This document shows, in pieces, positions 40,275-48,810 of a stretch of DNA of 64,000 nucleotides. The translations under genes and the position numbers were made by a program. The first letter of the stretch is position 1. The number at the start of each line of letters is the position of its first letter. The notes beneath the pieces are model-generated. The model was not told the DNA's origin and did not search any database. It worked only from the letters and a program-made list of their open reading frames with translations. This DNA comes from an uncultured Desulfuromonadales bacterium (lineage in GTDB: Bacteria > Desulfobacterota > Desulfuromonadia > Geobacterales > Pseudopelobacteraceae). Location of the stretch: NCBI GenBank assembly GCA_903868145.1, contig CAIPTY010000068.1, positions 62,001-126,000 of the forward strand, given 5' to 3'.

Positions 40275-40324
40275 TCAGGAAGGCTTCTTATTTTTCCATG
40301 ACTGCCAGGAGACACCCATTCACC

Positions 40325-43300
40325 ATGCGGCTCACCGACTACCACGCAAAATACTACGCCCACGAGCTGACCAAACGCTGTTCATCCGACAGCATTGAAA
40401 AACTGGCTGCTTCTCTTGCTGATGCCCAGGTTGATCTCAACCCCCATCAAGTCGATGCCGCCCTGTTTGCGTTCCGGTCACCTCTTTCCCGTGGGGCGAT
40501 CCTGGCTGATGAAGTTGGTTTAGGTAAGACCATTGAAGCAGGTATCGTACTTTCCCAGATATGGGCTGAACGGAAACGCAAGATCCTCATCATTGTTCCT
40601 TCCAGTTTGCGGAAGCAGTGGAGCCAAGAGTTATCAGAGAAATTCTTTCTCCCTTCTACCATCCTTGAATCCAAGTCATTCAATCAGGAAGTCAAGCAAG
40701 GCAATCGCAACCCATTTGAGCAAAGCGAAATTATTATCACTTCCTACCAGTTTGCCCGAAACAAGGGGGATCAGGTCAGAACCGTTCAATGGGATTTGGT
40801 TGTTATAGACGAGGCCCACCGGCTCCGTAATGTGTATAAGACCTCCAACAAGATAGCCCGTGCCATCAAGGATGTTCTGGCTCACGCACCCAAGCTGTTG
40901 CTGACTGCAACACCATTGCAGAATTCCCTTATGGAGCTGTACGGGCTTGTCAGCTTCATTGATGATTACATCTTCGGCGACATCAAAAGTTACAAGAACC
41001 AGTTTGCCCGACTGACCAGTGAGATCAACTTTGACGACCTGAAAGCCCGTATTGCGCCTATCTGCAAGCGTACCTTGCGGCGACAGGTGCTGGAGTACAT
41101 CAAGTACACCAACCGGATACCTATCACCCAGGAATTCATCCCTACCAAAGACGAAACAGTTTTGTATGATCTGGTGTCAGAGTATCTGCGCCGGGATAAC
41201 CTTCAGGCATTACCCGCCAGTCAGCGTTCGCTGATGACTCTTGTGTTGCGGAAGCTGTTAGCCTCTTCCACGTTCGCCATCGCCGGTGCTTTGGATTCGA
41301 TAGTTCTACGACTGAAGGCAAAGCTGAAGAATGCCATCCCCACTTTGTCATCCCCGAACCTCTCCGCTATGTCATCCCCGAATGCCTCTATCGGGGATCC
41401 AGGTTTTAAGGTGCCGAAAAACGATGGATTCCCGATTACAGCCTCGGGAATGACTGAAATACCGGTAGAGGATGAACTTGCTGATGATTTTGAAACTCTG
41501 GACGAGATCAAGGATGAGTGGGAAGAGGACGAGTACGAAGAGCGGTTGACCAAAGAGGATCTTGATACGATCCAGCTTGAGATTATTGACCTGGAGGCTT
41601 TCAGGGATCTTGCCGTTTCCATCACGGAGAATGCCAAAGGTAGGTCATTGATACAGGCACTGAAGGCCGGATTCAGCAAGGCCGAAGCATTGGGTGCCAA
41701 CAAAAAAGCCATAATCTTCACCGAATCCCGCAGGACGCAGAACTATCTTGTCAAGGTACTTTCCGAAACCGAACATCAGGGAAAGATTGTCCTGTTCAAC
41801 GGTTCCAATACCGACGACCAATCCAAACAGATTTATCAGCAATGGTATGCACGGTATCAAGGGAGCGACCGTATCTCCGGTTCAAAATCTGCTGATATGC
41901 GTTCTGCCCTGGTGGACTACTTCAAAGATGAAGCCCATATCATGATTGCTACTGAAGCGGCGGCAGAAGGCATCAACCTTCAATTCTGCTCTTTGGTGGT
42001 TAATTACGATCTTCCCTGGAATCCACAGCGGATTGAACAGCGCATCGGACGTTGCCACCGCTACGGTCAGAAGCATGATGTTGTAGTGGTCAATTTCCTT
42101 AACAAGAACAATGCCGCCGATCAACGGGTCTATGAACTGCTGGCCGAGAAGTTTGCCCTGTTTGATGGGGTATTCGGTGCCAGTGATGAGGTGCTGGGTA
42201 GCATCGAATCCGGTGTTGATTTTGAGAAACGTATTGTCAGGATTTATCAGGAGTGCCGCTCATCGGAACAGATACAGGCATCATTTGATGAGTTGCAGCG
42301 GGAGCTGGAAACCGAGATTGACGAGAGCATGAAGCTCACCCGTAAGAAACTTCTGGAGAACTTCGATGAAGAGGTACACGAGAAGCTGCGGGTCAACCTG
42401 AAGGAAAGTACCGAGTACCTGAACAGATACGAAAACTGGCTCTGGGAGCTTGCCAAGTATGCCCTTCACCGCCATGCTGATTTTCTTGATGGAGAGATGG
42501 CGTTCTGCCTGAAACATGTTCCTGTAGGGGCGAAGCGGGGTTCATCTGCTTCGCCCGCCTCTGCTCTTTGTGGCGATAAGGGCGAGATCAAGACAGGGGG
42601 CGAGCCGTTGGCATCGCCCCTACAGAATGTACCGCTCGGCCTGTATAAAATGGGGAGGCATGTCGAAGAGGGTCACGTATTCAGAATTGGTCATCCACTG
42701 GCGCAGCATATCCTGACCGACGCTACCAGTAAGAAATTACCTGAATCAGAAATAGCCTTCGATTATTCCGGCCATCCATTGAAGATTTCCATTCTGGAGC
42801 CGTTAGTCGGTATATCAGGCTATCTGTCGCTTTCCAGGTTGTCGGTTGAGTCATTCGAGGAAGAGGATCATCTTATCTTTTCCGCTGTCACTGATACCGG
42901 AACCGTCCTTGATGATGAACAGGCACAGCGACTGTTTTCGTTGCCGGGGACATGTAGGGGCGACCGGCCGGTCGCCCCTACGGTACGCGACCAGCTCAAA
43001 CAGATATTTGTATCAGGGCAAAGCCGGATTATTGAGGAGATTAGTGCCAGAAATTCTGTTTTCTTCGATGATGAGATGGATAAGCTGGAGAAGTGGGCCG
43101 ATGACTTGAAGAGTGGCCTGGAGTATGAGTTGAAGGAGCTGGATCGGGAGATCAAGTACCTGAAGACTGAATCAAAGAAGATACTCAAGCTTGAAGAGAA
43201 GCTGAAGGCTCAGAAGGAGATCAAAGAGCTGGAGAAGAAGCGCAACACCAAACGCCGCACCATGTTTGAAGCCCAGGATGAGATAGACAGCCGGAAAGAA

Positions 43301-43384
43301 GGGTTGATTGAATCGGTAGAGGTACGTTTGAAGCAACTTGTCAGTAAGAGTGAGTTATTCTCAATTCGTTGGCGAGTGGTGTAA
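40325..43384 (+). CDS. SNF2-family helicase of a defence-like island, with in-frame repeat insertions
   Basis: Large SNF2/RapA-like ATPase of about 1019 residues. Helicase motifs: DEVGLGKTIEA (I), DEAHRLRN (II), LTATPLQNS (III) and QRIGRCHRYGQ (VI). The last 150 residues form a long charged coiled coil (LKELDREIKYLKTESKKI and following). No nuclease motif is seen. It is followed by a BRO-N protein and a type III R-M pair, a setting resembling other defence systems that pair an SNF2 helicase with a methylase, such as DrmD in DISARM, but drmA, drmB and drmC are missing. Three palindromic elements lie in frame at 41371-41454, 42523-42624 and around 42954-42981, inserting low-complexity segments between conserved regions. 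ATG at 40298 is an alternative start. Confidence 0.9.
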   Translation: MRLTDYHAKYYAHELTKRCSSDSIEKLAASLADAQVDLNPHQVDAALFAFRSPLSRGAILADEVGLGKTIEAGIVLSQIWAERKRKILIIVPSSLRKQWSQELSEKFFLPSTILESKSFNQEVKQGNRNPFEQSEIIITSYQFARNKGDQVRTVQWDLVVIDEAHRLRNVYKTSNKIARAIKDVLAHAPKLLLTATPLQNSLMELYGLVSFIDDYIFGDIKSYKNQFARLTSEINFDDLKARIAPICKRTLRRQVLEYIKYTNRIPITQEFIPTKDETVLYDLVSEYLRRDNLQALPASQRSLMTLVLRKLLASSTFAIAGALDSIVLRLKAKLKNAIPTLSSPNLSAMSSPNASIGDPGFKVPKNDGFPITASGMTEIPVEDELADDFETLDEIKDEWEEDEYEERLTKEDLDTIQLEIIDLEAFRDLAVSITENAKGRSLIQALKAGFSKAEALGANKKAIIFTESRRTQNYLVKVLSETEHQGKIVLFNGSNTDDQSKQIYQQWYARYQGSDRISGSKSADMRSALVDYFKDEAHIMIATEAAAEGINLQFCSLVVNYDLPWNPQRIEQRIGRCHRYGQKHDVVVVNFLNKNNAADQRVYELLAEKFALFDGVFGASDEVLGSIESGVDFEKRIVRIYQECRSSEQIQASFDELQRELETEIDESMKLTRKKLLENFDEEVHEKLRVNLKESTEYLNRYENWLWELAKYALHRHADFLDGEMAFCLKHVPVGAKRGSSASPASALCGDKGEIKTGGEPLASPLQNVPLGLYKMGRHVEEGHVFRIGHPLAQHILTDATSKKLPESEIAFDYSGHPLKISILEPLVGISGYLSLSRLSVESFEEEDHLIFSAVTDTGTVLDDEQAQRLFSLPGTCRGDRPVAPTVRDQLKQIFVSGQSRIIEEISARNSVFFDDEMDKLEKWADDLKSGLEYELKELDREIKYLKTESKKILKLEEKLKAQKEIKELEKKRNTKRRTMFEAQDEIDSRKEGLIESVEVRLKQLVSKSELFSIRWRVV
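41347..41454 (+). repeat. Two-hairpin palindromic repeat inside the helicase gene
   Basis: The 84-nt core 41371-41454 begins GTCATCCCCGA and ends TCGGGAATGAC, an inverted pair with one mismatch. It contains two hairpins, TCCCCGA/TCGGGGA and TTCCCGA/TCGGGAA. The first 12 bases also occur just upstream at 41347-41358, as if an end had been duplicated. The core is 28 codons long and keeps the frame open. It resembles the REP/MITE-like elements common in proteobacterial intergenic regions. Confidence 0.85.
42523..42624 (+). repeat. GTAGGGGCGA-family palindromic element inside the helicase gene
   Basis: It begins TGTAGGGGCGA and ends TCGCCCCTACA; 102 nt, exactly 34 codons, open in frame. Its last 26 bases before the final A (42598-42623) are the exact reverse complement of 44329-44354 downstream, showing both belong to one family. 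Confidence 0.87.
42954..42981 (+). repeat. Perfect 28-bp palindrome of the GTAGGGGCGA family inside the helicase gene
   Basis: The half-site GTAGGGGCGACCGG is followed by its exact reverse complement. It encodes RGDRPVAPT in the helicase frame without a stop. It looks like a minimal copy made of two ends only. Confidence 0.87.
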
Positions 43385-43420: not shown

Positions 43421-43437
43421 GGGGACAAATTGTCCCC
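43421..43437. promoter_or_regulatory. Perfect inverted repeat upstream of the BRO-N gene
   Basis: GGGGACAA, A, TTGTCCCC. It shares the core ACAA-N-TTGT with the second symmetric site 13 nt downstream, suggesting two related protein-binding sites in this 123-bp leader. Confidence 0.45.
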
Positions 43438-43444
43438 CCCTTGA

Positions 43445-43484
43445 ACTGTCGACAATTTGTCGATAGTCAGTAATACAAAATAAT
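43445..43484 (+). promoter_or_regulatory. Operator-like repeat overlapping a promoter of the BRO-N gene
   Basis: The imperfect palindrome at 43445-43467 has the core CGACAATTTGTCG (43450-43462). The -35-like TTGTCG (43457-43462) lies within it and AATAAT (43479-43484, five of six) follows after 16 nt. A bound protein would block the promoter. The same 13-nt core occurs again in the coding region at 43683-43695. Confidence 0.45.
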
Positions 43485-43507
43485 CGTACGGTTGAAGGGG
43501 GTTACTT

Positions 43508-44332
43508 ATGAGCAATATCAAGCTTTTTGAATCAAACCGGATTCGTTCTGCATGGGATGAGAAAGAGCAGAAATGGTTTTTTTCCGTGGTTGATGTTGTC
43601 AACGCATTAACTGACAGCCCCGATCCCAAGGATTATTGGTATAGAATCAAAAAGAGAGAGAAAATACAGGGTGTTGAGTTATCGACAATTTGTCGACAAC
43701 TGAAACTTGAAGCCTCCGATGGGAAAAAATACCAGACAGATTGCTCTCACACTGAAGGAATCCTTCGAATTATCCAATCCATACCTTCACCCAAAGCAGA
43801 ACCATTTAAGCAGTGGCTTGCGAGGGTCGGTTATGAGCGGCTGGAGGAGATCGAAAATCCCGAACTGTCTATGGAGCGGATGCAGTCTCTGTATGAGAAG
43901 AAAGGCTATCCGAAGGAGTGGATTGATAAACGAATGCGGGGAATTGCCGTTCGTCAGGACTTGACTGATGAATGGAAGAACCGGGGAGCCACCACCAGCC
44001 TTGAGTACGCTATACTGACCAATGAGATCATGCAGGGAGCTTTTGATCTGAAGGTGGACGATTACAAGCTGATCAAGGGGCTTGGCAGGGAGAACCTGCG
44101 GGACCACATGACCGATATTGAGTTGATTCTGACCATGCTGGGTGAGGCCACCACTGCCAAGCTCCATAGGGATCGTGACACCAAGGGGTTTAAACCGCTC
44201 AAGAAGGATGCCAAGGATGGCGGAGCTGTGGCAGGGAGAACTCGTAAAGATATTGAGAAGCAGGCAGGCAAGCCGATTGTGACCAGTGAAAACTTTAAAG
44301 AGCTGACTGGAAAGAAAAAGAAAATCACGTAG
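43508..44332 (+). CDS. BRO-N domain (DinD/antirepressor-like) protein
   Basis: Protein of 274 residues whose N-terminal part (about 1-110) is a BRO-N domain: IRSAWDEKEQKWFFSVVDVVNALTD, then YWYRIKKRE and the conserved IIQSIPSPKAEPFKQWLA. The rest matches chromosomal BRO/DinD-type proteins, including VGYERLEEIENPEL. BRO-N domains bind DNA and occur in phage antirepressors and damage-inducible proteins, so it may regulate this island. GAAGGGGG lies close to the ATG. Its stop codon TAG (44330-44332) is provided by the end of a palindromic element. Autoregulation through the CGACAATTTGTCG sites is an inference. Confidence 0.87.
   Translation: MSNIKLFESNRIRSAWDEKEQKWFFSVVDVVNALTDSPDPKDYWYRIKKREKIQGVELSTICRQLKLEASDGKKYQTDCSHTEGILRIIQSIPSPKAEPFKQWLARVGYERLEEIENPELSMERMQSLYEKKGYPKEWIDKRMRGIAVRQDLTDEWKNRGATTSLEYAILTNEIMQGAFDLKVDDYKLIKGLGRENLRDHMTDIELILTMLGEATTAKLHRDRDTKGFKPLKKDAKDGGAVAGRTRKDIEKQAGKPIVTSENFKELTGKKKKIT
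43683..43695. promoter_or_regulatory. Second copy of the CGACAATTTGTCG site inside the BRO-N gene
   Basis: The core is identical to the one at 43450-43462, and the flanks match it in inverted orientation (TATCGACAA and TCGACA on the outer sides). It encodes STICRQ. The protein sequence here is conserved in the family, so the match could come from coding constraint. Confidence 0.35.
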
Positions 44333-44405
44333 GGGCGATGCCAACGGCTCGCCCGCTTTTCGTCGATGCAATAAAACCAGGGCGACCCGTTGGGATCGCC
44401 CCTAC
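44329..44405 (+). repeat. GTAGGGGCGA-family hairpin element between the BRO-N gene and mod
   Basis: 77 nt with 26-nt arms (44329-44354 and 44380-44405) pairing with two mismatches around a 25-nt loop. The left end supplies the stop codon of the BRO-N gene; the right end lies 25 nt before mod. No T-run follows, so it would be a weak terminator, but it could attenuate or protect the mRNA. Confidence 0.88.
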
Positions 44406-44430
44406 AATGTATTGATTTTATGAGGAATAC

Positions 44431-46101
44431 ATGGCCAACACAAAACTCGAACTAACCTGGATCGGCAAGGATAAACAGCCGAAGCTGGAACCCAGGATTC
44501 TGATAGAAGACCCGGACAAGTCCTACGGTGACCGGAATACCGAGAATATGCTGATCTTCGGGGATAACCTGTTGGCGTTAAAGGCGTTGGAACAGGAATT
44601 TACCGGAAGGATCAAGTGCATTTTCATAGACCCACCCTACAACACCGGCAGTGCTTTTACTCATTATGATGACGGGTTGGAGCATTCGCTATGGTTGACC
44701 ATGATGCGGGATCGGTTGGAGATTCTGCGGCGACTGCTGGCGGATGATGGTTCGATATGGATCACGATTGATGACAATGAGGCGCATTACCTGAAAGTGA
44801 TGTGTGATGAGATTTTTGGGAGGGGGAATTTTGTAGCAAATGTTATCTGGCAAAAGCGAACTTCACCTGATATGCGTGCAACATTAGGAGCAGGCCATGA
44901 TCACATACTTGTTTTTTCAAAATGCATCGATTTATTCAAAAAAACGATTAACCCCATACCAAAATCTGAAGATCAAATAAAACAATATAAAAATCCAGAT
45001 AATGACCCAAGAGGGCCATGGGTTTCTTCAGACTTTACAGCACAAGGTTTCCGTCCTAATCAAATGTACAAAATCGTCACTCCTGGTGGATCAGAATTCA
45101 CACCGGCAGAAGGAAGGTGCTGGAAAAATATTGAATCTGTTTATTTACAGGCCGTATCTGAAGGAAGGATGTGGTTTGGCAAAGATGGTAAAGGGGTTCC
45201 AAGAAGAAAAACTTTTTTATCCGAGAGTGAAGGTAATACCGCATGGACATGGTGGCCAAATAGCGAGGTTGGACATACGCAAGAATCCAAAAAAGAAGTC
45301 ATTGCCCTCTTTGGCACAGCTAATGTTTTCGATACTCCTAAGCCTGAGCGATTGATCCATAGAATTCTCCAAATATCTACAAACCCCGGCGACCTTGTTC
45401 TAGACTCCTTCTCCGGTTCCGGCACTACCGGTGCAGTTGGCCACAAAATGGATCGGAAGTGGATTATGGTTGAGTTAGGCGACCATTGCCACACTCACAT
45501 TCAACCCCGTCTGCAAAAGGTTTGTGATGGCACTGACCAGGGCGGTATCTCCAAGGCGGTCAGCTGGCAGGGTGGCGGAGGCTTCAAGTATTACTATATG
45601 GCCCCCAGTCTGCTGAAAAAGGACCGTTACGACCAGTGGGTCATCAACGAACAATACAATCCAACTATGATGGCAGCTGCAATGGCGAAGCATGAGAGTT
45701 TTCACTATTGCCCGGATGAGGTCTATTACTGGAAGCAGGGACAATCATCGGAGAAGGATTTCATCTTTACCACTACGGCACATCTGACACCGGAACACCT
45801 GGACAGAATCCATGAAGAAATGCAACCGGACGATAGCCTGTTGATCTGCTGTAAATCCCATTTTGAAGGTGCTGATGGCAAATACAGTAACATTACGGTT
45901 AAGAAGATCCCTTCCATGCTACTCGGTAAGTGTGAATTTGACCGGGACGACTACAGCCTGAACATTGTTGATATGCCCCGTAATCCTGATGATCCCGAGT
46001 TTGTGCCAGCTGGCCCAGCTGTTGAAGACAAGAAAGATGAAAAGACTTCAAAAGCGGAAAAATCAGGACAGATGAATATCTTTGCTGGTACGGGGGAATA
46101 A
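44431..46101 (+). CDS. Type III restriction-modification system methyltransferase (Mod)
   Basis: N6-adenine methyltransferase of 556 residues that modifies and recognises DNA for the type III complex. It has the beta-class order: DPPYNTG (about 68-74, catalytic) before the SAM-binding DSFSGSGTTG (about 325-334). The section between, roughly 44820-45400, is the target-recognition region and is distinctly AT-rich: 44941-45000 has 16 G+C in 60, whereas 45601-45660 has 30 in 60. A specificity domain swap is likely. The last 40 residues are charged and low in complexity. res starts at the next base. Confidence 0.93.
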   Translation: MANTKLELTWIGKDKQPKLEPRILIEDPDKSYGDRNTENMLIFGDNLLALKALEQEFTGRIKCIFIDPPYNTGSAFTHYDDGLEHSLWLTMMRDRLEILRRLLADDGSIWITIDDNEAHYLKVMCDEIFGRGNFVANVIWQKRTSPDMRATLGAGHDHILVFSKCIDLFKKTINPIPKSEDQIKQYKNPDNDPRGPWVSSDFTAQGFRPNQMYKIVTPGGSEFTPAEGRCWKNIESVYLQAVSEGRMWFGKDGKGVPRRKTFLSESEGNTAWTWWPNSEVGHTQESKKEVIALFGTANVFDTPKPERLIHRILQISTNPGDLVLDSFSGSGTTGAVGHKMDRKWIMVELGDHCHTHIQPRLQKVCDGTDQGGISKAVSWQGGGGFKYYYMAPSLLKKDRYDQWVINEQYNPTMMAAAMAKHESFHYCPDEVYYWKQGQSSEKDFIFTTTAHLTPEHLDRIHEEMQPDDSLLICCKSHFEGADGKYSNITVKKIPSMLLGKCEFDRDDYSLNIVDMPRNPDDPEFVPAGPAVEDKKDEKTSKAEKSGQMNIFAGTGE

Positions 46102-48810
46102 ATGGACAAGTATGCCACCAACATCAAGAACCGCTTGAGCCTACGTTCTCCCCAGACAGAGAGTTTGAAGATACTGGCCGAGATTGCTGATATCCTGCCA
46201 CTCAAAAAAGATGCTAACCTTGCCTCAGAGCAAGAAAAGGTACTTACCTATACCGGCGATCTTGCGGCAGAGAATGGATCTGCACGGGTTTTTACCGACT
46301 TTGAGCGTAACTTCCCCTGTGTCTGCTTTGCCCTGGCAACCGGCGTGGGTAAGACCCGCCTGATGGGTGCCTTCATCACTTGGCTGAATCAGGCAAAAGG
46401 TATCAAGAACTTTTTTGTCCTGGCACCAAACCTGACCATCTATAACAAGCTGATTGAGGATTTTTCCAATCCCCGCAGCCCCAAGTATGTGTTTCCTGGC
46501 ATTGGTGATTATGTCCACCGGCCACCGGGGATCATCACCGGCGACAACTACACCAACAGTAAAAATCTACCCCTCTTTGACGAATCCATCAGAATCAACG
46601 TCTTCAATATTTCCAAGATCAATGCCGAAACCAAGGGAGGCAAGCTCCCCCGTATCAAGAGGCTCTCTGAATATATCGGTGAATCCTACTTCGATCACCT
46701 CGCCAGTCTGGACGATCTGGTTATCCTGATGGATGAATCCCATCATTATCGGGCTGAACGGGGGATGCAGGTAATCAACGAGCTTAAACCAGTTCTGGGA
46801 ATAGAGCTGACCGCTACTCCCAAGATAGAGACAGGCGGGAGATCGGTACCCTTCAAAAATGTGGTCTATCAGTATGGTCTGGGAGTGGCGATGGATGATG
46901 GTTTTGTCAAAGAACCTGCCGTTGCTACCCGCAAGGATTTTGACCCGTCACGCTACACCCAGGATGAGCTGGACCAGATCAAGCTGGAAGATGGTATCCG
47001 CATCCACGAGGACACCAAGATCGGTCTGGAGATATACGCCCGTGACGAAAAGTGCCGACTGGTGAAGCCGTTTGTTCTGGTTGTCACACGGGACACCGAC
47101 CACGCCTCAAAAGTAAAGGCGTTGATCCAGTCAACCGCTTTCTTTGAGGGGCGATACTGCGACAAGGTAATGGAGATCCACTCCAACCAGCGGGGTGATG
47201 AAAAGGAAGAGAACATCCAGCAGCTCCTTACCCTGGAGAACCCGGAAAACAAGATTGAGATCGTTATCCATGTCAATATGCTGAAAGAAGGGTGGGATGT
47301 TACCAACCTCTACACAATCATTCCGCTGCGTACATCGGCATCAGAAACCCTGACAGAGCAAACCATAGGCCGAGGGTTGCGTCTCCCATACGGCAAGCGT
47401 ACCGGCAATGACAAGGTAGATAAGCTGACCATCATCGCCCACGACAATTTCCAGAAGATAATCGAAGAGGCCAACAAGCCCGGCTCCATCATCAAGCAGA
47501 GAAATATCATCGAGATTGATCCTGCTACCTTTGAAGGAACCAAAGAGGTTGTTGTTGCCAAAAGTGCTTTTGAAGAGAAGGTGGCGGAAGAACAAAAGAA
47601 GATTGAGGCCATGCCGGAATCGCAGGAGAAGGCAAAGGCCACTGTCACCCTGGAAATCAGGAAGACGATCTATGCAACCATCCCCCAGGTCAACAACAAG
47701 GTTAAGAATGTTGCCGAGCTGAGTAATCAGGAGATCAAGGATATTGTGGTTGCCAAGGTGAAGGCACAACTACTTTCCTCACCGCAGCAGGGGTTGTATG
47801 ATGCCGATGTAGTCAAGGAGATCGAAGCGGTCTATCAGGCCACGGTAGATGAGTTCATCCAGAACACCATTGAGATTCCCCGCATTGTAATCCAGCCTAC
47901 AGATGAGGTTGATTCCGGTTTCCATGATTTTGATCTGGACACGAAAAACCTCAACTACCCGCCTGTTGCGGAAGAGATCCTGATCCAGTATCTGAACCGT
48001 AAAGAGAACGCCCAGGAAACCCTGATCGGTAAGTACGGTATCAACGCCGACAAACCGGAAAACCTGATCTTGAATGAGTTGATTAACTATTCCGAGATTG
48101 ACTATGACAGCCAGGCAGAACTGCTCCAGAAGCTTGTTGGACAGGCAATAGCGAAGTTGAACAGCTACCTGGACGATGAGCAGTTCATCAATGTTGTCAA
48201 GTATCACAAACGGGAAATCGCCAATCTTATCTATTCACAGATGAGGCCGCACTTTTACTGCAACACAAAATCCTACGAAGAACCGATAGTCAAACCCTAT
48301 ACCGAGATCGAACGGCACAACCTGACCAAGATCCAGGCGGATAACATTCATCACTACACCGACACCATTACTCCGACCAACACCATCCCGCAGAAAGTCT
48401 TTTCAGGATTCAAGAAGGCATGTCACACCCTGTATAAGTTCGATGCCAAGGGTGAGAAGGACTTCGCCACCATCCTGGAGAACGACAAGGACGTTATCAA
48501 ATGGCTCCGTCCGGCACCGAAACAGTTCCATATCTATTGGGATCATAACGCCAGAACCTACGAACCGGATTTTGTCATTGAGTCGGGTAATATCATCTAC
48601 CTGACCGAGATAAAGGCCAATGACCAGATGACCGCTCCTGATGTCCTGGAAAAAGCGAAAGCTGCGGTTCAATACTGTAAACACGCCACGGATCACAACC
48701 TTCAAAATGGTGGGAAGGAATGGAAGTATCTGCTCATACCGCATAGCGAAGTTCAGTTGAATAGCAGTTTTGCGTATCTGGCGGGGAAGCGGGTGGTGCA
48801 TAATGACTAA
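46102..48810 (+). CDS. Type III restriction endonuclease subunit (Res)
   Basis: Restriction subunit of 902 residues, ATP-dependent helicase and nuclease. Helicase motifs: LATGVGKTRLMG (about 78-89), MDESHHYRAE, ELTATPK and QTIGRGLRLPYG. The C-terminal nuclease core reads EPDFVIESG followed by LTEIKA, the PD-ExK pattern expected of Res. No frameshift or stop interrupts it, so with Mod it appears a complete type III system. Its start codon directly follows the mod stop. Confidence 0.93.
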   Translation: MDKYATNIKNRLSLRSPQTESLKILAEIADILPLKKDANLASEQEKVLTYTGDLAAENGSARVFTDFERNFPCVCFALATGVGKTRLMGAFITWLNQAKGIKNFFVLAPNLTIYNKLIEDFSNPRSPKYVFPGIGDYVHRPPGIITGDNYTNSKNLPLFDESIRINVFNISKINAETKGGKLPRIKRLSEYIGESYFDHLASLDDLVILMDESHHYRAERGMQVINELKPVLGIELTATPKIETGGRSVPFKNVVYQYGLGVAMDDGFVKEPAVATRKDFDPSRYTQDELDQIKLEDGIRIHEDTKIGLEIYARDEKCRLVKPFVLVVTRDTDHASKVKALIQSTAFFEGRYCDKVMEIHSNQRGDEKEENIQQLLTLENPENKIEIVIHVNMLKEGWDVTNLYTIIPLRTSASETLTEQTIGRGLRLPYGKRTGNDKVDKLTIIAHDNFQKIIEEANKPGSIIKQRNIIEIDPATFEGTKEVVVAKSAFEEKVAEEQKKIEAMPESQEKAKATVTLEIRKTIYATIPQVNNKVKNVAELSNQEIKDIVVAKVKAQLLSSPQQGLYDADVVKEIEAVYQATVDEFIQNTIEIPRIVIQPTDEVDSGFHDFDLDTKNLNYPPVAEEILIQYLNRKENAQETLIGKYGINADKPENLILNELINYSEIDYDSQAELLQKLVGQAIAKLNSYLDDEQFINVVKYHKREIANLIYSQMRPHFYCNTKSYEEPIVKPYTEIERHNLTKIQADNIHHYTDTITPTNTIPQKVFSGFKKACHTLYKFDAKGEKDFATILENDKDVIKWLRPAPKQFHIYWDHNARTYEPDFVIESGNIIYLTEIKANDQMTAPDVLEKAKAAVQYCKHATDHNLQNGGKEWKYLLIPHSEVQLNSSFAYLAGKRVVHND

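Follow-up and report, generated by a model that had tools for sequence, protein, structure and literature searches.

An intragenic palindrome in BRO-N genes covaries with the predicted recognition helix of the encoded protein

Repressors that control their own synthesis in toxin-antitoxin modules and on plasmids have their operators upstream of the gene. Palindromic DNA inside reading frames is represented by parS sites, which lie inside spo0J of Bacillus and are nearly invariant across bacteria, and by Rickettsia palindromic elements and REP-type repeats, which are dispersed repeats in unrelated genes. The RepC initiator of repABC plasmids, according to the accessible part of the source, binds the origin within its own coding sequence (PMC2783167). 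Bro-N network proteins are described, in the accessible sections of PMC10111431, as domain-swapping proteins that exchange modules, and DinD is not mentioned in the accessible sections of PMC8464067. For DdrC, DNA binding that does not depend on sequence is reported, together with bridging and circularisation of the DNA (PMC5436757). A literature search, whose reach excluded most subscription papers, returned no report of palindromes inside the BRO-N genes and their relatives considered here.

The BRO-N locus and its palindromes

The window, the whole stretch of 64,000 nucleotides from an uncultured Desulfuromonadales bacterium that was analysed, encodes a BRO-N protein which matches the Pfam Bro-N family (39.2 bits, gathering cut-off 25.6) and, full-length over residues 2-272, the PADLOC profile PDC-S13 of a candidate anti-phage family (E 8e-120). 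The gene is set in a restriction-modification-like island, with a SNF2-type helicase gene on the 5' side and a methyltransferase and a ResIII gene on the 3' side (Table 1).

Table 1. Features of the BRO-N locus in window coordinates.
Feature	Position	Strand	Remarks
SNF2/DrmD-like helicase gene	40298..43384	+	Neighbour; Pfam and PADLOC profiles
Upstream palindrome GGGGACAAATTGTCCCC	43421..43437		Other specificity class; its letters spell LGTNCPP, like codons of another BRO-N allele
Upstream palindrome ACTGTCGACAATTTGTCGATAGT	43445..43467		Same class as internal palindrome; may be a second operator, or left over from an older BRO-N copy
BRO-N gene	43508..44332	+	ORF, 274 aa; Pfam Bro-N PF02498; PADLOC candidate family PDC-S13
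Predicted recognition-helix codons, residues 40-53	43625..43666	+	AF2 model; the half-site varies together with residues 42, 45 and 46
Intragenic 25-bp palindrome AGTTATCGACAATTTGTCGACAACT	43677..43701		Codes for E-L-S-T-I-C-R-Q-L; site that the BRO-N protein is proposed to bind
Type III-like DNA methyltransferase gene	44431..46101	+	Neighbour; Pfam and PADLOC profiles
ResIII-type restriction/helicase gene	46102..48810	+	Neighbour; Pfam and PADLOC profiles

The palindromic sites which the first-pass annotation had placed upstream of and inside this gene were confirmed, the 13-mer CGACAATTTGTCG being exact at 43450-43462 and 43683-43695 and a related copy with two mismatches, GGACAAATTGTCC, lying at 43423-43435. 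With up to two mismatches the 13-mer is found five times in the window where 1.83 copies are expected, a count that is unimpressive alone, as 6 of 100 shuffles reach five. A search of the 3.8-Mb genome for more copies, as had been proposed, recovered the exact 13-mer at the leader and at the internal site but nowhere else. With two exact core copies only, both at the BRO-N gene, a dispersed palindromic repeat of the RPE/REP type was rejected, as was, for the window, a genome-wide regulon motif. Among the window's 45 ORFs of at least 200 codons, three reach a palindrome score of 8 and none exceeds it. Inverted-repeat elements of the form GTAGGGGCGA...TCGCCCCTAC occur at 42952-42982, in frame within the helicase gene, and at 44331-44408, between the genes for BRO-N and the methyltransferase, with the appearance of a dispersed repeat family.

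In the AlphaFold2 (AF2) model of the protein (mean pLDDT 89), helices 27-34 and 40-53 form a helix-turn-helix (HTH)-like pair, and the palindrome codes for the segment that follows it. The model thus predicts the HTH-like fold with a recognition helix that is expected of an autorepressor. DdrC is the only solved fold relative that Foldseek found with this model (E 1.4e-6, TM-score 0.42-0.51, rmsd >10 Å over the whole chain), and a sequence search for a solved relative gave one meaningless match only.

Conservation of the palindrome at the DNA level

Relatives were taken as the 80 best from a scan of genome contigs, from viral contigs and from the window's own taxonomic family, in which 55 of 76 genomes possess a BRO-N homologue; after profile matches spanning fewer than 225 positions and duplicates had been left out, 136 distinct full-length genes were retained. 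In 132 of these, no palindrome anywhere in the gene scores higher than the one at profile codons 45-80, and all 136 score at least 6 at that site. The palindrome is kept and the sequence is not, with 45 different 17-bp cores at the internal site coding for peptides such as STICRQ, SEKIGQ, YPIWVQ, VTNCNQ, WGTICTP and GGGQIDPP, among others. The important palindrome is the intragenic one, rather than the upstream copies.

At distances of 3-12 bp on either side of the centre, the two arms are complementary in 103-132 of 133 distinct segments, where 36-98 are expected from column composition; more than 15 positions out, the counts drop to expectation. The codons for Leu three before the centre and Gln three after it covary silently, with 67 concordant and no discordant pairs (TTG:CAA 41, TTA:CAA 10, CTG:CAG 14 and CTA:CAG 2; Fisher p 9e-16, relatedness ignored); silent changes on the two sides have gone together and preserved the dyad. 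In the window's BRO-N family 139 of 166 genes score above a synonymous-codon null at p<0.05, and 51 of 58 dinD genes do so. It is highly improbable that the palindrome acts as an mRNA hairpin in the control of translation or decay, or arises as a by-product of constraints on the protein sequence: the long arms would fold as RNA too and the coding position is fixed, but complementarity extends to 2-3 bp from the centre, within the would-be hairpin loop, synonymous nulls are exceeded in most genes and, as described below, one palindrome occurs in two reading frames. An RNA structural element was rejected as wobble pairs lack strand bias, the G-U type mismatches numbering 22 on the sense and 20 on the antisense strand.

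Internal palindromes are also present in related families. The distant Bro-N relative dinD of E. coli K-12 carries a single strong coding palindrome of 32 bp at the equivalent codons, and among 61 genes of the dinD family 53 score at least 7 at the site, with five more recognisable but degenerate, including the E. coli BLR-type allele. Two allele groups of E. coli dinD exist, with 1,932 genomes at least 95% identical to K-12 and 2,732 at 80-90%; in the three alleles of 86-87% identity that were examined (set L166, L215-L218), the palindrome is degenerate. The known SOS box upstream of E. coli dinD, present in the sequence, is a LexA site. An internal palindrome was also found in a KilAC antirepressor (L309), in a BRO protein of Nostoc (L310) and in an Arcobacter Bro-N gene on a plasmid (L312). 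In genomes of the taxonomic order to which the window belongs, the best palindrome sits at one common site per family in 25 of 28 RhuM, 20 of 21 ORF6N and 15 of 16 KilA-N genes, and all 60 of these exceed the synonymous null, 8 of the 73 loci having been left out for poor ORF coverage (RhuM 2/30, ORF6N 2/23, KilA-N 4/20). Six Bro-N genes of the phage-antirepressor type are without an internal palindrome (L167, L168, L186, L308, L313 and L314).

Coupling of the predicted recognition helix to the half-site

When genes are grouped by half-site, a matching helix emerges just upstream of the palindrome. Of the corrected entropy at columns 42, 45 and 46, which share one face of the predicted HTH helix, half-site class accounts for 0.95, 0.90 and 0.84, compared with 0.21 and 0.38 at columns 53 and 55, closer to the palindrome, and a mean of 0.16-0.19 in the C-terminal region. 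In a pair test, for which each gene was used once and pairs with half-sites of different classes were compared with pairs of the same class, 172 of 195 helix-face cells were changed in the former versus 16 of 183 in the latter. The corresponding counts were 193/250 versus 98/239 for control columns between helix and palindrome, 274/380 versus 194/361 for control columns after the palindrome and 1622/9982 versus 1793/9368 for C-terminal control columns.

At the level of single triplets at positions 42, 45 and 46, 20 of 24 occur with a single half-site and the remaining 4 with half-sites differing at the outer bases only. The code derived from them assigned 24 of 25 half-sites correctly out of sample, in genes that are phylogenetically non-independent of the training set, where shuffles average 3.2 and never exceed 9; the prediction set comprised 28 further genes, 25 with a known and three with a new triplet, two genes with no recognised helix (L040 and L284) having been left out. 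The dinD family follows rules of its own, QWRNF going with GCTGA (5/5) and RWENF with CGTG (10/10). On a tree of the C-terminal region with 136 tips, genes have switched between half-site classes 73 times or more, which provides many replicate changes. A palindromic site at its own gene, with a sequence that follows the recognition helix, is what an HTH autorepressor would show, and the proposal of the first-pass annotation that the site is a target of the BRO-N protein is supported by the covariation of half-site and helix face in the 136 genes and by the prediction in further ones. Paralogues within one genome do not avoid sharing a class, as 2 of 13 pairs are of the same class where 1.21 are expected.

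The helix triplet D-K-K goes with the half-site GGGGAC (core GGAC) in 14 genes, which use it in two reading frames and with different amino acids: four genes code for NWGTFCPPL or FLGTNCPQV with the dyad centre on codon base 2, and ten for GWGQIVTPL or GGGQIDPPL with the dyad centre on codon base 1. The triplet Q-K-R with GTAC likewise occurs in two frames (10 genes and 1 gene). The helix thus follows the DNA letters and not the peptide, because one half-site occurs with the same helix in two frames, which argues against an explanation by protein packing.

Several loci carry traces of gene exchange. Truncated 5' copies of BRO-N genes with another half-site class lie directly upstream of the intact copy at five loci (L018 1-240, L021 5990-6280, L029 6001-6290, L070 6001-6210 and L084 2527-2800); these are, to judge from their sequence, orphan N-terminal modules that the replacement of a gene or the exchange of a module has left behind. 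Isolated BRO-N fragments that include the palindrome are present in genomes of the window's family (L126, L127, L128, L129 and L140-L145). The gene of L145 ends abruptly just past the palindrome, the sequence beyond the break resembling the C-terminus of HsdS, and in L132 a truncated BRO-N domain is fused within an open frame of 790 codons, with a decayed palindrome and a C-terminal part that resembles a formylglycine enzyme.

Helix and palindrome are adjacent, and co-inheritance therefore contributes to their coupling. That co-inheritance would account for all of it, the palindrome marking a domain boundary as a hot spot for the recombination by which N-terminal modules are exchanged, is very unlikely. 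The orphan 5' modules upstream of intact genes, the isolated fragments around the palindrome, the frequent switching of class and the domain-swapping ascribed to the Bro-N network in the accessible sections of PMC10111431 are consistent with such exchange; columns 42, 45 and 46 are, however, coupled far more tightly than columns 53-55, though the latter are nearer to the palindrome, and both the use of one half-site with the same helix in two frames and the relocation of palindromes to upstream positions are left unexplained by co-inheritance.

Site position, proposed mechanism and known systems

The first-pass annotation had described a palindrome over the probable -35 box and suggested cooperative or looping repression from spaced upstream and internal sites. 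An overlap with a promoter is possible but weak, as the sole sigma-70-like match found near the BRO-N gene (TTGTCG at 43457-43462 and AATAAT ending at 43484) agrees at 9 of 12 positions, with 0.5 such matches expected in shuffles. Repression by spaced sites found no support: a same-core copy within 250 bp upstream, at up to two mismatches, is present in 4 of 224 genes only (the window's, L073, L201 and L222), and an upstream operator at the promoter as the main feature was rejected on the same count. L006, 90% identical to the window gene, has no upstream same-core copy, and no other STICRQ-type gene is among the four carriers; by the test set out in the first-pass annotation, the upstream part of its proposal falls with this result.

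Translated in a single frame, the window's upstream palindromes together give N-L-G-T-N-C-P-P-L-E-L-S-T-I-C-R-stop, which resembles the codons of another BRO-N allele and covers two classes (compare NWGTFCPPLEL in L007). Because they read like BRO-N codons, and since truncated 5' copies are seen at five loci, the upstream sites may be remnants of earlier or replaced BRO-N copies or modules, of which the one in the same class as the internal palindrome is possibly still bound by the protein.

The internal palindrome is absent, with a score below 6, in L219, L221, L227, L228 and L270, of which L219, L227 and L228 possess palindromes scoring at least 9 just upstream of the start codon, that of L219 being of the DinD type, GACCATTTTCCCGGAGCTGGGAAAATGGT; L221 has an imperfect 29-bp upstream palindrome and L270 a weak upstream one only. 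An upstream score of at least 9 is reached by 3 of 5 genes without versus 15 of 218 with an internal site (Fisher p 0.004), the cut of <6 having been picked after inspection of the list and the earlier cut of <7 giving 3 of 11; matches covering less than 75% of the profile, duplicates and genes with a start outside the locus were left out of this set. From their sequence, it looks as if the operator were able to sit in either place, internal or upstream. Some members are inserted into operons, L219, L227 and L228 directly after parB on plasmids and L312 between cas4 and cas1.

Taken together, BRO-N is probably a dimeric HTH protein which binds the 25-bp intragenic palindrome and thereby damps its own transcription. 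Residues 42, 45 and 46 would recognise the half-site bases that lie 3-8 bp away from the centre of the dyad, and the spacing of the half-site cores, about 9 bp, would suit two recognition helices on one face of the DNA. The simplest means would be for the protein, bound to its own coding sequence, to stand as a roadblock in the way of RNA polymerase. As the gene carries its site within it, autoregulation could operate from any promoter or operon where the mobile gene lands, and its effect may extend to genes further downstream, in the window for instance that of the methyltransferase; a few members have their palindrome shortly before the start codon instead. Against this reading speak the DNA binding without sequence preference reported for the fold relative DdrC, the adjacency of helix and site together with the control columns between them, which also differ more often in pairs of different class, the six antirepressor-type genes that lack the palindrome, the weak upstream palindrome of L270 and the lack of class avoidance between paralogues.

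Binding of the intragenic palindrome might alternatively serve plasmid partition, the bridging of DNA or the marking of the gene for homing or module exchange, which we consider unlikely. The position directly after parB is occupied by BRO-N/dinD genes of Thiothrix and Chlorohelix plasmids, bridging and circularisation of DNA are reported for the fold relative DdrC (PMC5436757), and such roles would be in line with the truncated 5' copies of other classes and with the at least 73 changes of class. Most copies are found not beside par genes, however, the window's copy itself being in a restriction-modification-like island, and genes without the internal site tend, in the few cases at hand, to have one shortly before the start codon, the classic operator position.

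Autorepression through the intragenic site might extend to the BRO-N, DinD, KilA-N, ORF6N and RhuM superfamily, a generalisation to which we give somewhat less than an even chance. Its members would be self-addressed, with the operator in the codons beside the helix, so that specificity and site are rewritten and inherited together. Regulation by a promoter-independent roadblock would allow such a gene to insert into any restriction, CRISPR or plasmid operon and to control its expression, and the coding palindromes would supply a readable code of protein-DNA recognition for these families. If true, the DNA-binding specificity of many uncharacterised proteins of these five families could be read from the gene, and it would be explained how a mobile gene keeps its regulation wherever it lands. 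Paired helices and sites would form a natural data set for a recognition code, and what DinD and RhuM do would become testable in E. coli K-12 through synonymous mutations alone.

Autoregulated repressors of toxin-antitoxin modules and plasmids resemble BRO-N, as far as the accessible sources go, in being HTH or similar proteins with a palindrome at their own gene, but have their operators upstream, whereas the BRO-N site is normally inside the reading frame. The parS sites in spo0J share with BRO-N a palindromic site within the binder's own gene; parS is nearly invariant, while the BRO-N palindrome varies between genes together with the recognition helix. Rickettsia palindromic elements and REP-type repeats are likewise palindromic DNA inside open reading frames, to the extent that the sources could be accessed; they are dispersed over unrelated genes, in contrast to BRO-N palindromes, which lie at a homologous place with a sequence particular to each gene. 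E. coli DinD, as a Bro-N protein with its palindrome at equivalent codons, is like the window's BRO-N but belongs to a separate, distant branch with half-sites of its own. The domain-swapping Bro-N network comprises the same protein families as here, and the accessible sections of PMC10111431 make no mention of a coding palindrome. DdrC of Deinococcus radiodurans, a DNA-binding damage-response protein, gives the only solid Foldseek match to the BRO-N model, at the TM-score and rmsd stated above, and differs in its non-sequence-specific binding of DNA, as reported in PMC5436757. RepC, in the accessible part of PMC2783167, is like BRO-N a DNA-binding protein with its target inside its own gene; its target is a replication origin, whereas that of BRO-N would be a short palindrome beside the recognition helix, with which it covaries in several families.
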